The notes below the pieces were generated by a model. That model searched no databases and was not told the DNA's origin. It saw only the letters and a list, made by a program, of their open reading frames with translations. DNA of 25,027 nucleotides from a virus. Position numbers and translations under genes: made by a program. The DNA is taken from positions 1-25,027 of IMG/VR virus record IMGVR_UViG_3300045283_000128; one strand, given 5' to 3'. Of the stretch, positions 3,621-14,664 are shown piece by piece; within the stretch, counting starts at the first letter, position 1; the number at the start of each line of letters is the position of its first letter.

Positions 3621-4870
3621 TGCAGCACCCCGCTTCCCGTGTCGGATCGTGTGGTGTCGGTGACGCCGAGCTGCTCACGGATCTCCTGGACGGTCAGCGC
3701 GGGCTGCCCTGTCACCGGGTCGACGATCCCGCTGTAGATCTGGATCACCTGCGCCTGCTCCAACGGCATCGGTGCGACGTACCGGCGGCTGTCGAGCTCG
3801 ACCGAGGTGCCGCGGGGTAGCGCCCACCCGGACAGCGCTTTCATCACGCTGACGGCTTTCGGCTCCAACCCTTGCCGCCAGTGCAGCTCCGTCCACATGT
3901 TCATGTTCTTGTACGTCATCGGGTCCGTCGAGGTGGGGATCCCGACGAGCTCGGACGGCATCCCCAATAGCTGCGCGATCCGGCCTTCCTCACGGTCGAG
4001 CAGGGTGGTGAGGCCGAGGTCGTTCGGGTTGATCTGCGTCGGTGTCCACTTGATCCCCCCCGACAGGACGGCGGGCTCACCGATCGACGAGAGCCTCGCC
4101 GCGACCCAGTCGGCCTTCAACGCTGCCGCTTGCGCCGGTGTCTGCTCCGCCGGGTGCTCCAAAACTCCTGATGGGATCCCGCCGCCGCCGACGAGCTTCG
4201 TCGCGTACGAGATCAACGCTTGCGCCGCGGCGACGCGGTTGCCGCCCGCCTCGAGCGGGCCGATCCCGTGCGCGACCCCGACCTGGCTCGAGTACCGGAT
4301 GTGCAATAGCTCACCGGTGACGTCGTCGCCGCCGATCTCGTAGGTTCGGAGCCCGTCGGCCATCGTGATGTTCACCCACCACGGCGGCACGACGTGGAAG
4401 CTGGCGGGCCACCCGGTCGCGTACCACGCCGTTGCCAAAACGAACGCCTCACCGACCGCCTGGTAGTCCCAGAACAGCTGCTTGCAGAACTCCTCCCACG
4501 ACGTGTACATGTTCGCGTCGGGGTTGGTGAGCCACCCGACCGGCGTCGACGGTGCGGCGCCTTTCAGGTAGGCGGGCATCGTCGACAGGATCGACGCTTG
4601 CCGGTCGATCACCATCCACGCCGTATCGGTCGGGGTCGGCATCATCATCCCGCCGGACCAGTTCGGCGTGTTCCAGTCCGCCGGCCACCCCGACCACGCC
4701 GACGGCGTGATCGACGGCGGCGACCAACCAACATCGGTGCCGGTGATGACCACGCCGTTCGGGTCGCCTGGTCTCGCCGATGGCGGCCCGACCGTCGCCG
4801 GCGGGACGTCGGCGGGGTCGTTCGAGTTCGGGATGTCAGGCGGCCGCGCCGACCTCGAGAACAGCCCCAT
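3617..4870 (-). CDS. Portal protein
   Basis: A 417-residue portal protein starting at ATG 4870, which shares one base with the terminase stop (TGATG). An upstream in-frame extension to 4921 is ignored because it only reads inside terminase. The protein has the HK97-type portal layout: a P/S/D-rich variable N-terminus, W-rich wing (WDYQAVGEAFVLA), the GIGPLEAGG segment, and the C-terminal LDREEGRIAQLLGMPSELVG followed by TYKNMNMWTELHWRQ, a classic portal stretch. It forms the dodecameric DNA gate and docks the terminase. Confidence 0.9.
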   Translation of the reverse strand: MGLFSRSARPPDIPNSNDPADVPPATVGPPSARPGDPNGVVITGTDVGWSPPSITPSAWSGWPADWNTPNWSGGMMMPTPTDTAWMVIDRQASILSTMPAYLKGAAPSTPVGWLTNPDANMYTSWEEFCKQLFWDYQAVGEAFVLATAWYATGWPASFHVVPPWWVNITMADGLRTYEIGGDDVTGELLHIRYSSQVGVAHGIGPLEAGGNRVAAAQALISYATKLVGGGGIPSGVLEHPAEQTPAQAAALKADWVAARLSSIGEPAVLSGGIKWTPTQINPNDLGLTTLLDREEGRIAQLLGMPSELVGIPTSTDPMTYKNMNMWTELHWRQGLEPKAVSVMKALSGWALPRGTSVELDSRRYVAPMPLEQAQVIQIYSGIVDPVTGQPALTVQEIREQLGVTDTTRSDTGSGVLQ

Positions 4871-9873: not shown

Positions 9874-10199
9874 GGCCGGTAACACCAGTTCGAATCCGCT
9901 AGCAGCTCGAGCTGCCGGTCGACCGGGACCGGTGCTGGCATCCCCGTCGCGTCACGGCGGAAGCACTGGTTGCCGGCGTGCCAGCCGATCGTGCGGCCGC
10001 AGTGCTGGCAGTAGCCGTCGCCGCGGTCGTGGAAGGTGCCGGTCACGCTTCCCGCCTTGAACGCTCGGTCGAATCCGGTAGGCGGGTCCGCCGGGTCGAA
10101 CTCGTCGAGGTCGTCCTCGGTCATCTCGTCGCCCGGTTCGACAGTGCATTCCATGCCGTCGCCGTACTCTCGATCTGCCTCGTCGTTGGGAACGTTCAC
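9870..10199 (-). CDS. Small protein with zinc-ribbon-like Cys/His cluster
   Basis: A 109-residue protein, GTG start at 10199. The first half is acidic (about one third D/E between residues 22 and 40). A CQHCGRTIGWHAGNQC segment (C64, C67, H74, C79) can bind one zinc ion. It ends LELLADSNWCYRP. The start lies beside two tandem CGTTAACG palindromes. Not recognised as a known family; nucleic-acid or protein binding is likely from the zinc cluster. Confidence 0.6.
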   Translation of the reverse strand: MNVPNDEADREYGDGMECTVEPGDEMTEDDLDEFDPADPPTGFDRAFKAGSVTGTFHDRGDGYCQHCGRTIGWHAGNQCFRRDATGMPAPVPVDRQLELLADSNWCYRP

Positions 10200-10437: not shown

Positions 10438-10438
10438 C

Positions 10439-11847: not shown

Positions 11848-12282
11848 TCATGTTTTGGGACCGAACCGGGCGCGGATCCAGGACGCGTTCAGGTCATGCA
11901 TGGGGTTGACGACGAGCCCCTGACTAGACAAGAGGCCGAGCTCGTCGGCGCCCGGAAAGTCCTCCTCGCCCGAGTGCCACGCGACCGGTTTGACGTAGGT
12001 GTGCGGAAAGCCCCCGTCCTTGTCCACGTCGGTCACGCCGGTCGACTCCCAAACCTCCTCGCCGTCCTTGTCCTTCGTGATTTTGTAGCGACGTTCGACG
12101 GTTTCGAGGAGCGCGAAAAAGGCGATCGGCTCGACGTAGGCGACGTCGTGGATTGACCCGCCTGTCGGGTCGTAGCCGTTGTCGTCGTCGCGGCGGGTCA
12201 GCGAGTACCACCCGGGCGGCGCCGCCACTATCGAGAGTATGCGCGTGTCCTCGATCCACTTGAGTTCCGGCTCGTCGCTCAC
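11848..12282 (-). CDS. Hypothetical protein coupled to integrase
   Basis: A 144-residue protein with GTG 12282 inside the integrase stop (GTGA). The sequence has PPGWYSLTRRDDDNGYDPTG, VEPIAFFALLETVERRY and YVKPVAWHSGEEDFPG, aromatic-rich and acidic, without membrane segment or catalytic motif that I recognise. A GxDDxN-like stretch is not enough for a family call. Co-transcription with integrase suggests a lysogeny-related role. Confidence 0.65.
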   Translation of the reverse strand: MSDEPELKWIEDTRILSIVAAPPGWYSLTRRDDDNGYDPTGGSIHDVAYVEPIAFFALLETVERRYKITKDKDGEEVWESTGVTDVDKDGGFPHTYVKPVAWHSGEEDFPGADELGLLSSQGLVVNPMHDLNASWIRARFGPKT

Positions 12283-13154
12283 AGCCGCGCAACCTTGGCG
12301 GCGATGTCCTCGAACTCGACGCGGCCGTACTGCCGCACGGTCGTCTCGGGGGACTCGTGCCCCAGTAGGGCTTGGCGTTCCTCGAGGTCGAGCCCGCCCT
12401 GCCGGAGCCACCACGCGTAGGTGTGGCGGGTCTGGTGCGGGTTCAGATACCGCACGTCGACGAGCTCGAGCTTCTGGGCGTACCAGGTCGCGAACGTCGT
12501 GGAGGCGATCGGGTCCTGCCGGCGGCGGTAGTCACCGACGGGATACATCTTGCGGTACCACAGGTAGTCGCCCGGGTTAAGCCGCTCGAGGAGGTCGAGG
12601 TCGGCGACCGCGGCCGCGACGCTCGGGGTGAACGGGATCTGGCGGTCCTTGTTGCCCTTCCCCGAGTAGACCATGAGGCGGCCGCGGTTCAGGTCGATAT
12701 GCGACCTGCGGAGGTGGCGTGCTTCGCCGCCGCGGATCCCGGTGCCGAACAGGATCGCGAACAAAGGGCCGTCCGGGGACGGCAACGCCTCGAGGATCGC
12801 GATCTCCTCCGGGCTGAAGATGTCCTTCGGCCTCCGGTGGCCCGCTGACATCTTCGGGACCTTCCGCATCGGTGAGCGCTCGATCCGGTCGTCCTGGATG
12901 AGCCACTCGAAGAAGCAGTTGTAGATCGAGCGGGGGATGTACCTCGACCTGGGGGGGCAGACGCGGAGCTCGGCGTTGACGTCCTCGCCGGTGAACTCGC
13001 CGACGTCCTTGCCGGGGTGCCGGCGCAGCAGCGGCGCGACGGAGCGTTCGTACATGTACAGCGTGCGGGTGCTTTTGCCTTCGAGGTCGAGGTAGTCGAT
13101 CCACGCCTCGAGGTCCGCGTAGGAGCGGGCGTTGGTGTGGCGGGTGTCACGCAT
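12279..13154 (-). CDS. int: Tyrosine-family site-specific integrase
   Basis: A 291-residue tyrosine recombinase. Catalytic residues are all visible: R141 (TGIRGGEARHL), K166 (SGKGNKDR), H240-x-x-R243 (HQTRHTYAWW), H266 (LLGHES) and Y276 (VRQYGRV). The N-terminal core-binding domain covers ~10-95. It inserts phage DNA into the host chromosome. Start ATG 13154 is chosen because the N-terminal domain begins there and because a short leader frame ends across it; a longer reading from 13277 would run through a hairpin and gives unlikely protein. An arm-binding domain seems to be missing or very short. Confidence 0.88.
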   Translation of the reverse strand: MRDTRHTNARSYADLEAWIDYLDLEGKSTRTLYMYERSVAPLLRRHPGKDVGEFTGEDVNAELRVCPPRSRYIPRSIYNCFFEWLIQDDRIERSPMRKVPKMSAGHRRPKDIFSPEEIAILEALPSPDGPLFAILFGTGIRGGEARHLRRSHIDLNRGRLMVYSGKGNKDRQIPFTPSVAAAVADLDLLERLNPGDYLWYRKMYPVGDYRRRQDPIASTTFATWYAQKLELVDVRYLNPHQTRHTYAWWLRQGGLDLEERQALLGHESPETTVRQYGRVEFEDIAAKVARL

Positions 13155-13230: not shown

Positions 13231-13265
13231 GCCCGGGCCGTGTGAGCGGTGCCGGGCTTTTTATT
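13231..13265 (+). terminator. Rho-independent-type terminator, plus strand
   Basis: GCCCGG (13231-13236) pairs with CCGGGC (13252-13257), with an inner CCG/CGG pairing, and is followed by TTTTTATT. No plus-strand gene lies upstream, so it would stop a transcript antisense to integrase. The hairpin also forms in the minus-strand xis-int message. Confidence 0.6.
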
Positions 13266-13281: not shown

Positions 13282-13482
13282 CTACTCGACACGCCTGGTC
13301 TTCCTGTCGCCGTTCCCGTTCTGGCGGTGGTACTGCTCGATCCACTCGTAGATCTCGTCGGGGTCGAACCGCAACCCGCCGGGGAGGTCGTAGAACGGGA
13401 GCCCCTTCTTTGTGTAGCGGAGCACCGTTTTGGTGCTGACACCGAGCTGCTTCGCGGCGTCGCGGGTCGAGAGGAGAGTCAC
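13282..13482 (-). CDS. xis: Excisionase / MerR-like small HTH protein
   Basis: A 66-residue protein with GTG start at 13482. The sequence LSTRDAAKQLGVSTKTVLRY, GLPFYDLPGGLRFDPDEIYEWIEQY is the winged-helix (AlpA/Xis, HTH_17) fold: recognition helix around 15-25, a beta wing near GGLRF. It directs integrase towards excision. It lies directly upstream of integrase, and seven phased repeats sit 40 bp before its start, where it may bind. Longer readings further upstream cross the repeats and are rejected. Confidence 0.82.
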   Translation of the reverse strand: MTLLSTRDAAKQLGVSTKTVLRYTKKGLPFYDLPGGLRFDPDEIYEWIEQYHRQNGNGDRKTRRVE

Positions 13483-13511
13483 AGTACGACCGGTTCTACC
13501 GCCTCGAGCCA

Positions 13512-13527
13512 GGCCCCGTCCGGGGCC
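13512..13527. repeat. 16-bp palindrome before xis
   Basis: GGCCCCG TC CGGGGCC is a perfect inverted repeat with a 2-base centre. It overlaps the first, degenerate unit of the phased repeat array and lies about 30 bp upstream of the xis start. There is no T-run on either side, so an operator is more likely than a terminator. Confidence 0.45.
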
Positions 13528-13590
13528 AAACGCGGACATGAGAGGACAATGAGAGACAACCGGGGACAAGCGGGGACAAACGAGGACATG
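13521..13590. repeat. Seven tandem 10-bp phased repeats (GGACA core)
   Basis: The pentamer GGACA (or one-base variants) recurs exactly every 10 bases at 13524 (GGCCA), 13534, 13544, 13554 (AGACA), 13564, 13574 and 13584. The consensus is close to CGGGGACAAG. One helical turn between units puts all cores on one face of the DNA. Its place between xis and the plus-strand HTH gene suggests binding sites for Xis, integrase arms or a repressor. Confidence 0.7.
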
Positions 13591-13748
13591 CGGAAGTGTC
13601 GCTGTTTGCGGCCGAAACGTTCGCGCCTGCGCAACGACGAGTCGCCAACCTGCCCCCCCAGATGTCGCCTGCCCGCGAACCGGCGACACTAACAACGCAT
13701 GGGTGCCCGTGCAAGCAGCGGGCGGCGGGTTCGGCCAACCTGTAGCGC
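13591..13748. promoter_or_regulatory. Intergenic switch region, candidate attP
   Basis: The region separates divergent xis and HTH genes. It has TGTCGCC (13663-13669) paired with GGCGACA (13682-13688) over 12 bases, and AGTGTCGC (13595-13602) paired with GCGACACT (13683-13690). GTCGC occurs four times. Integrase core sites are short inverted repeats of this kind, so attP may lie here; divergent promoters are also expected. No tRNA-like 3' end found. Confidence 0.35.
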
Positions 13749-13976
13749 GTGGCCCGCAACCCGCCCCGGGAGAGCGCCGACCGTGTCCGCGCCCTCCACG
13801 ACCAGCTCACCGCTGCGCGACGGGAAGAGGAGACCGCGAAGGAGGCTCTGTACCGCGCGACCTACGAGGCGAGCCTGGACGGGTGGAGCGACCGCGCGCT
13901 CGGGGCGGCGATCGGGGTGCCGTACCGCACCGTGCAGGACTGGCGGGAGATCGGCCGAAGCCTCGAAGAGCAATAA
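13749..13976 (+). CDS. Small helix-turn-helix protein, possible lysogeny regulator
   Basis: A 75-residue plus-strand protein, GTG 13749. Residues 10-40 form a charged helix (DRVRALHDQLTAARREEETA); residues 46-70, WSDRALGAAIGVPYRTVQDW, make a standard HTH. It faces the xis-int genes across the repeat region, where phage switch regulators are normally coded. It is shorter than usual repressors and has no dimerisation or cleavage domain. Cro-like or immunity role inferred from place only. No clear Shine-Dalgarno, so perhaps leaderless. Confidence 0.6.
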   Translation: MARNPPRESADRVRALHDQLTAARREEETAKEALYRATYEASLDGWSDRALGAAIGVPYRTVQDWREIGRSLEEQ

Positions 13977-14149
13977 GAGGGCCGGCGCCAAGCACTGGAC
14001 AGGGCTCGGCGGCCGACCCGACCTCGTACCGTAGCCCAGCCCCGGTCACCCCAGATGGGGGATACACCGCGGCCCGGCGGCCCGGTACTTTCCTTCGTGA
14101 ACCCCGGCGGATCAAGCCTCCGGGGGAACTGGACAAAGGAGTACTAGCG
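13977..14149 (+). promoter_or_regulatory. Leader of the secreted-protein gene
   Basis: This gap of 173 bases ends with AAAGGAG 8 nt before ATG 14150. A CCCCGG...CCGGGG hairpin with a 12-base loop lies at about 14102-14125, just before the ribosome site, and could control translation. I see no convincing -10/-35 pair. Confidence 0.35.
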
Positions 14150-14599
14150 ATGAAGTACCTGGTGATCTTTGCCGTGGTCGCGGCGGGCACATACGCGATC
14201 GCGAGCCACAGCAGCACTTCGAGCAGCGCCGAGACCACAGCCGCCGCGCCTGTCGAGACAGCTCACATAACGATGCTGCGTGGCGCCTCGAGCGACAACT
14301 CATGCACCGAGGACGACGGTGACGCCCGGATCTACGTCACGATCACTCTCCGCAACAGCGGCAGCGCAGCCGGGACCGTGAACCCGTGGGCGACGTTCGA
14401 CTACTCCGACGGCGGCAACTCGAGCGAGAGCTACCTCTCCAACTACGGGCACGGGATCAGCGTCCCTGCGCACACCGAGGTCGACGCATCGTTTTACCAC
14501 ACCTTCAACCCGCAGCAGCACTCGATGATCCGGTGCGCCGGCTACACCGACCTCGGCAGCAGCGACAACACCGGCTACTACCTCCCGGCCGGTCTCTAG
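14150..14599 (+). CDS. Secreted or membrane-anchored beta-sandwich-like protein (moron candidate)
   Basis: A 149-residue protein starting at ATG 14150 with strong AAAGGAG. Residues 3-19 (YLVIFAVVAAGTYAIAS) form a signal peptide or anchor, then an S/T/A-rich linker, then a domain with alternating strands (ARIYVTITLRNSGSAAGTV) like extracellular immunoglobulin-like modules. C52 and C129 may form a disulfide. No lipobox. It stands alone on the plus strand between the immunity and lysis regions, the usual place for genes expressed by the prophage, so a change of the host surface is a fair guess. Its stop shares CTAG with the convergent membrane peptide. Confidence 0.7.
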   Translation: MKYLVIFAVVAAGTYAIASHSSTSSSAETTAAAPVETAHITMLRGASSDNSCTEDDGDARIYVTITLRNSGSAAGTVNPWATFDYSDGGNSSESYLSNYGHGISVPAHTEVDASFYHTFNPQQHSMIRCAGYTDLGSSDNTGYYLPAGL

Positions 14600-14664
14600 C
14601 GTCGCATCGACGCGACGACCGCGACCGCGAGTAGGAGCGCGAGCACGAACAGCAGCCACGTCAC
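14596..14664 (-). CDS. 22-residue membrane peptide after holin
   Basis: GTG 14664 overlaps the holin stop (GTGA). The peptide is MTWLLFVLALLLAVAVVASMRR: one membrane helix with a basic end. Its TAG overlaps the TAG of the opposite-strand gene in the palindrome CTAG. It could be a second holin component or antiholin, as small membrane peptides in lysis cassettes often are. Confidence 0.5.
   Translation of the reverse strand: MTWLLFVLALLLAVAVVASMRR

Follow-up and report, generated by a model that had tools for sequence, protein, structure and literature searches.

The analyzed window, a virus record of 25,027 bases, contains a 266-bp gap between two divergent genes, in which an array of seven decamers was located at positions 13520–13589 on the minus strand. 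On the left of this gap lies xis (13282–13482, minus strand), which starts with a GTG codon 37 bp from the array and encodes a 66-residue winged helix-turn-helix protein (HTH_17; TIGR01764, excise). On the right lies a plus-strand gene (13749–13976) for a 75-residue HTH protein, denoted HTH75, which matched general HTH families only and is followed by a gene for a DUF4352-like secreted protein. All genes of the window are directed leftward except those within 13749–14600. Beyond xis, the leftward series comprises the tyrosine recombinase gene int (12279–13154, minus strand), a gene for a protein of unknown function, genes for an HTH protein (called ParB-like in the original prediction) and a RecT-like protein, and then the terminase, the portal, and a putative capsid assigned from its position. 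Relatives of the terminase were found mostly in actinobacteriophages at less than 30% identity, and the known phage relatives of Xis and of the integrase are also distant.

On the xis-coding strand, the array follows the consensus NTGTCCYCNN, repeated seven times with a 10-bp spacing and no gap. Its units, read from 13589 to 13520, are ATGTCCTCGT TTGTCCCCGC TTGTCCCCGG TTGTCTCTCA TTGTCCTCTC ATGTCCGCGT TTGGCCCCGG, and the plus-strand units are CCGGGGCCAA, ACGCGGACAT, GAGAGGACAA, TGAGAGACAA, CCGGGGACAA, GCGGGGACAA, and ACGAGGACAT. They were numbered from the xis-distal end as unit 1 (13580–13589), unit 2 (13570–13579), unit 3 (13560–13569), unit 4 (13550–13559), unit 5 (13540–13549), unit 6 (13530–13539), and the xis-proximal unit 7 (13520–13529). 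The array is real and exceeds what is expected by chance: the maximum of lag-10 identity in the entire 25-kb window falls on it (39/60, against 36 in the best of 300 shuffles), and 5-mers in decamer phase, with one mismatch allowed, form a run of up to 7, a length not attained in 400 shuffles (maximum 6). The information of the units is concentrated in TGTCC, at 1.3–2.0 bits per position over 22 units. The original prediction had described seven phased 10-bp units at 13521–13590, of which the number, the register, and the lack of gaps were confirmed, and the position was corrected by one base. GGACA is exact in five of the seven units (13534, 13544, 13564, 13574, and 13584), and one base is changed in unit 4 (TGTCT, or AGACA on the plus strand) and in unit 7 (TGGCC, or GGCCA). 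The degeneracy ascribed to both end units hence applies to the xis-proximal end, whereas the distal unit (ACGAGGACAT) matches fully and the second weak unit lies within the array. The helical phasing, described as exact, is a strict 10-bp register that falls slightly short of the 10.5-bp turn of B-DNA, which by arithmetic rotates successive sites by approximately 17 degrees and the whole array by approximately 100 degrees. The claimed 16-bp perfect palindrome at the xis-side unit turned out to be an imperfect inverted repeat with 7-bp arms and a 2-bp center (GGCCCCG-TC-CGGGGCC, 13512–13527), which overlaps the last unit. Within 13490–13560, perfect palindromes do not reach a length of 10 bp, so that the suggested competition of two proteins at such a site falls away. 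In a related phage, L007, this inverted repeat is broken (GGCACCG/CGGGGAC), and it is probably incidental.

The 66-residue protein belongs, by sequence profile and model, to the excisionase/BldC winged-helix group. It matched Pfam HTH_17 (3e-9), PHROG_66, and NCBIfam TIGR01764 (excise), the last with 29.3 bits that barely exceed the cut-off of 28.8; the homologue in phage L046 scored 48.5. A profile search against the PDB gave the BldC–DNA complexes 6amk and 6ama (5e-4), the Xis of mycobacteriophage Pukovnik (4j2n, E = 1.2e-3), and RppC. An AlphaFold model with a pLDDT of 82 matched RdfS (8dgl), BldC (6ama/6amk), and Pukovnik Xis at 1.4–2.3 Å, the value of 1.4 Å being that for Pukovnik Xis. 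The model also resembles small terminase subunits and RacA in Foldseek, and since all its Foldseek E-values are 0.01 or weaker, it shows the fold rather than the family. In the profile alignment, allowing for a 4-residue tag offset, R22 of Xis, which is invariant in the three phages compared here, would correspond to the base-reading Arg30 of BldC.

These three phages, namely the window, L007, and L046, constitute the whole comparison set, and two of them are closely related. L007 was obtained by searching viral contigs with Xis; its Xis is 92% identical, and the same seven phased units lie upstream, of which the last is an intact TGTCC in place of TGGCC. The region 13483–13748 is approximately 93% identical between the two phages. 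Their integrases share 28% identity, whereas the DNA flanking int is 90–98% identical on both sides, indicating that int was exchanged as a cassette. The exchange is precise, with 13203–12281 of the window corresponding to 4409–5416 of L007. A scan for the array pattern that was blind to proteins returned 35 stretches, including L007 and L046. The L046 array consists of three TGTCC units, a null unit, and four further TGTCC units, thus eight registers, and is directly followed by a Xis homologue (55–59%) and then an integrase (33%). When the window and L046 were compared in the identical register, 47 of 70 bases matched, and the weak unit 4 of the window coincided with the null unit of L046. 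When the Xis alignment was used independently to search proteins alone, three relatives were obtained, L007, L046, and L169. The first two have both the adjacent integrase and the array, whereas L169 (45% Xis identity) has neither an array nor an integrase match by tblastn. The inspected HTH_17 genes of L008–L012 and of bacterial genomes also lacked the array. Since these relatives, L169 included, are approximately 36–45% identical, the array is not general for the HTH_17 family. The tyrosine integrase gene adjoins xis in all three phages. As the array is kept with Xis in L007 and L046 while the integrase differs, it follows Xis and not the integrase. The phasing had been predicted to belong with this xis, and the finding survives the comparison: L007, with the same xis, has the phasing with an unchanged repeat number, and L046 keeps the register beside a diverged xis. 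The occurrence of one array and one Xis with unrelated integrases separates the sites of Xis from those of integrase without a bench assay.

A candidate xis-int promoter, TTGCAC-N17-TAGTGT, was located by sequence comparison at 13686–13714 on the minus strand. L007 retains it with unchanged spacing, L046 has it in the form TTGCAT-N17-TAGCCT, and this conservation is what marks it as a predicted promoter; a sigma-70 scan gave no promoter above threshold, the element itself scoring below it. The array is located downstream of this element, at a distance of approximately 90 nt in the window that increases to approximately 160 nt in L046. The distance between the array and xis is 37, 37, and 23 bp in the three phages, which is better kept than that between the array and the HTH75 gene (159 versus 230 bp).

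The int product matched Pfam Phage_integrase (1.9e-23), Phage_int_SAM_4, and PHROG_1. Its probable start, MRDTRHTNARSYADLEAWIDYLD (ATG at 13154), lies directly at the core-binding domain and was deduced from the overlap with the stop of a mini-ORF and from comparison with L007 and L046. This mini-ORF, of 19, 19, and 30 residues in the three phages, stops over an in-frame ATG or GTG at the core-binding domain in each case. With the start codons so predicted, an arm-binding domain at the N terminus seems to be missing from each of the three integrases, which, if the start is right, removes arm-type sites as an explanation of the array and weakens a lambda-type intasome.

The mini-ORF is preceded by a conserved xis-int leader element, found at 13260–13147 (minus strand) in the window, at 4352–4412 in L007, at 2739–2799 in L046, and also in L182, L192, and L201. 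It contains a GC hairpin followed by GGCACAGGAGGnnnnnnCTCCCATGC, whose Shine-Dalgarno sequence can pair with a CTCC just 5' of an ATG; two covarying pairs were observed, and a search of Rfam gave no match. The same element precedes three genes for MHDQ... proteins in one actinomycete genome (G277), the only one among 396 searched with a strict pattern.

Binding to tandem repeats one turn apart in a head-to-tail manner is known for RDFs, and Apl, lambda Xis, Gifsy-1 Xis, and Pukovnik Xis bind such direct repeats cooperatively (PMC7498355). The closest likeness in arrangement is to Apl of coliphage 186, a P2-like RDF and switch regulator, which is also a small HTH protein acting on direct repeats 10–11 bp apart; seven Apl sites lie between pR and pL, its lytic and lysogenic promoters, and apl is the first gene of the 186 early operon (PMC7498355). 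Phage 186 differs in that its promoters face each other and a further array lies at attP, whereas a single array between divergent genes is present here; its TGTCCYC units are GC-rich and spaced by strictly 10.0 bp, and int belongs to the same operon. Pukovnik Xis shares the profile match and the fold, and is an actinobacteriophage excisionase described as acting on tandem repeats one turn apart (cited in PMC7498355). It acts at att together with integrase, whereas the integrase here seems to have no arm domain. BldC of Streptomyces, a 68-residue protein made of a winged HTH only, matches in both profile and fold and binds cooperatively head-to-tail to direct repeats of varying number, though it is a host developmental regulator with the consensus AATTXXXX(C) and 9-bp repeats at whiI (PMC5859096). 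RdfS of ICEMlSymR7A is an HTH_17 excisionase that forms filaments and binds both attP and its own promoter, which it represses; in contrast to the clear repeated motif found here, its sites have no consensus motif (PMC11963761). It also has an extra N-terminal helix that is absent from the Xis model.

We propose, with a probability of roughly 0.6, that the 66-residue Xis-like protein, whose gene follows immediately downstream, binds the array cooperatively and starts its assembly there, so that the array would serve as both operator and nucleation site. Each TGTCCYC decamer would accommodate a single Xis protomer, all protomers pointing the same way, and head-to-tail contacts between neighbors would build a filament of approximately seven protomers over the leader of the early operon that contains xis and int. 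Assembly of this filament would most likely repress or throttle xis-int transcription in a concentration-dependent manner, by blocking the promoter or by spreading to it; such a function is favored by the location of the array, which has the promoter-like element on one side and the xis start on the other and is opposed by the divergent HTH gene. By analogy with Apl of phage 186 and RdfS, this may amount to autoregulation at the divide between lysis and lysogeny, and the filament would probably also give the recombinase its direction. Of the three candidates named in the original prediction, the Xis filament is the best supported, by the conservation of the array with xis, by the family of Xis, and by the repeat binding of this group. 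Several points speak against an operator for Xis. The array lies well past the promoter-like element, so that a roadblock or spreading is needed; no second array as at the attP of 186 was detected when the window, L007, and L046 stretches were scanned with the unit profile, though these records may be incomplete; and the HTH75 gene is likewise present in all three phages. A bolder version, which we offer only tentatively and regard as doubtful, is that the filament on its single array acts solely as a concentration-dependent transcription switch beside an exchangeable, arm-less recombinase, in which case expression, rather than an excisive intasome, would determine the direction of recombination. 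The locus is most likely a switch of a type already known, in a phage group that is new, GC-rich, and uncharacterized. The array would constitute a clean operator, readable from sequence, for a filament protein of the excisionase type, and its natural variants (seven or eight registers, one position that is either weak or null, and two states of the end unit) would allow protomer number, register, and cooperativity to be tested.

Among the other explanations, a pure intasome reading ranks second to the autoregulatory operator. The array would then be the X-site region of attP, where the bending of DNA by Xis would serve solely to assemble the excisive complex, with transcription affected at most incidentally. 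RDF sites do normally flank the attachment core (PMC7498355), and three unrelated elements carry arrays of TGTCC/GGACA decamers bounded by a tRNA-like 3' end and an integrase gene. We nevertheless regard this reading as rather unlikely. The region 13483–13748, highly conserved despite the 28% identity of the integrases, is unlikely to contain either core, and the integrase appears to be without an arm domain. The surroundings of the array yielded no tRNA-like core, and in a DNA search of 296 actinomycete genomes the matches to the array region were all short and weak; an attP core was sought by a tRNA scan, by the genome DNA search with the region upstream of xis, and by tRNA-like patterns, none of which revealed one. 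Integrated prophages with a close Xis match (E < 1e-19) were also not found in 396 Actinomycetota and 201 order-level genomes. A tRNA T-arm-like fragment behind L046 int was considered as attP and dropped, as it is one copy of a dispersed gene-junction repeat described below.

It is more improbable still that the array is an operator for HTH75 or another phage repressor and not for Xis. The HTH75 gene diverges from the array in three of three phages, but its distance to the array is less conserved than that of xis, and one-turn direct repeats are typical of Xis and BldC, whereas HTH75 matches general HTH families only. In addition, 5 of 106 other TGTCC-array loci have an HTH_17-like gene within 400 bp, which is more than the 1.7 expected (permutation p = 0.017), and no HTH75 homologue occurs at those loci outside this phage group. 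When HTH_17 genes and integrases were counted together, 9 of the 106 loci had one within 400 bp (4.0 expected, p = 0.0025). A general link of TGTCC decamers to such genes is thus statistically present, but the set is mixed and many of the arrays lie within long ORFs, some of 811–816 residues, so that it serves here as weak support. Direct repeats are common as arm-type sites of integrases, and the array is close to int, which is why the units might be bound by the integrase itself. This candidate of the original prediction is disfavored and very improbable, as the array is retained when the integrase is replaced and, given the probable starts, an N-terminal arm-binding domain would be absent from every one of the three integrases. 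The least probable explanation, near the limit of what we would consider, is that the repeats arise as a by-product of coding in a small leader ORF (13634–13479) whose stop overlaps the xis start. Its frame is open just before xis in all three phages, and six of the eight substitutions between the window and L007 in 13485–13612 fall on third codon positions; yet an excess of this kind has a chance probability of approximately 0.06 after three frames (binomial, by hand). Moreover, the 10-bp period is no multiple of a codon while TGTCC is kept in every reading phase, and L046 has no matching peptide beyond the residues dictated by the repeat. The operator for the Xis-like protein is hence the reading we prefer.

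Similar repeats were observed in unrelated contigs. The arrays noted earlier, with a tRNA-like 3' end on one side and an integrase gene on the other, are located at 500–800 of L125, 13400–13750 of L029, and 4650–6000 of L059, and L125 carries a second array of three AAATCCGTCACC units. Short TGTCC decamer arrays also immediately adjoin the 3' ends of small HTH_17-like genes in four unrelated phage contigs (L015 at 10849, L021 at 6396, L028 at 3291, and L104 at 9716), with no integrase match near those arrays. The dispersed repeat mentioned above is an asymmetric element of approximately 32 bp (CCTAGCGGAYTCGAACC...GTTANCGGC) at early-gene junctions, nearly always oriented along the direction of transcription. 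In the window, it was found at 9917–9863, 10092–10041, and 11728–11673, with weaker copies at 10438–10391 and 10229–10190, and there are five copies in L007 and at least seven in L046. It often contains the TAG stop of the upstream gene and resembles the stoperators and start-associated sequences of mycobacteriophages.
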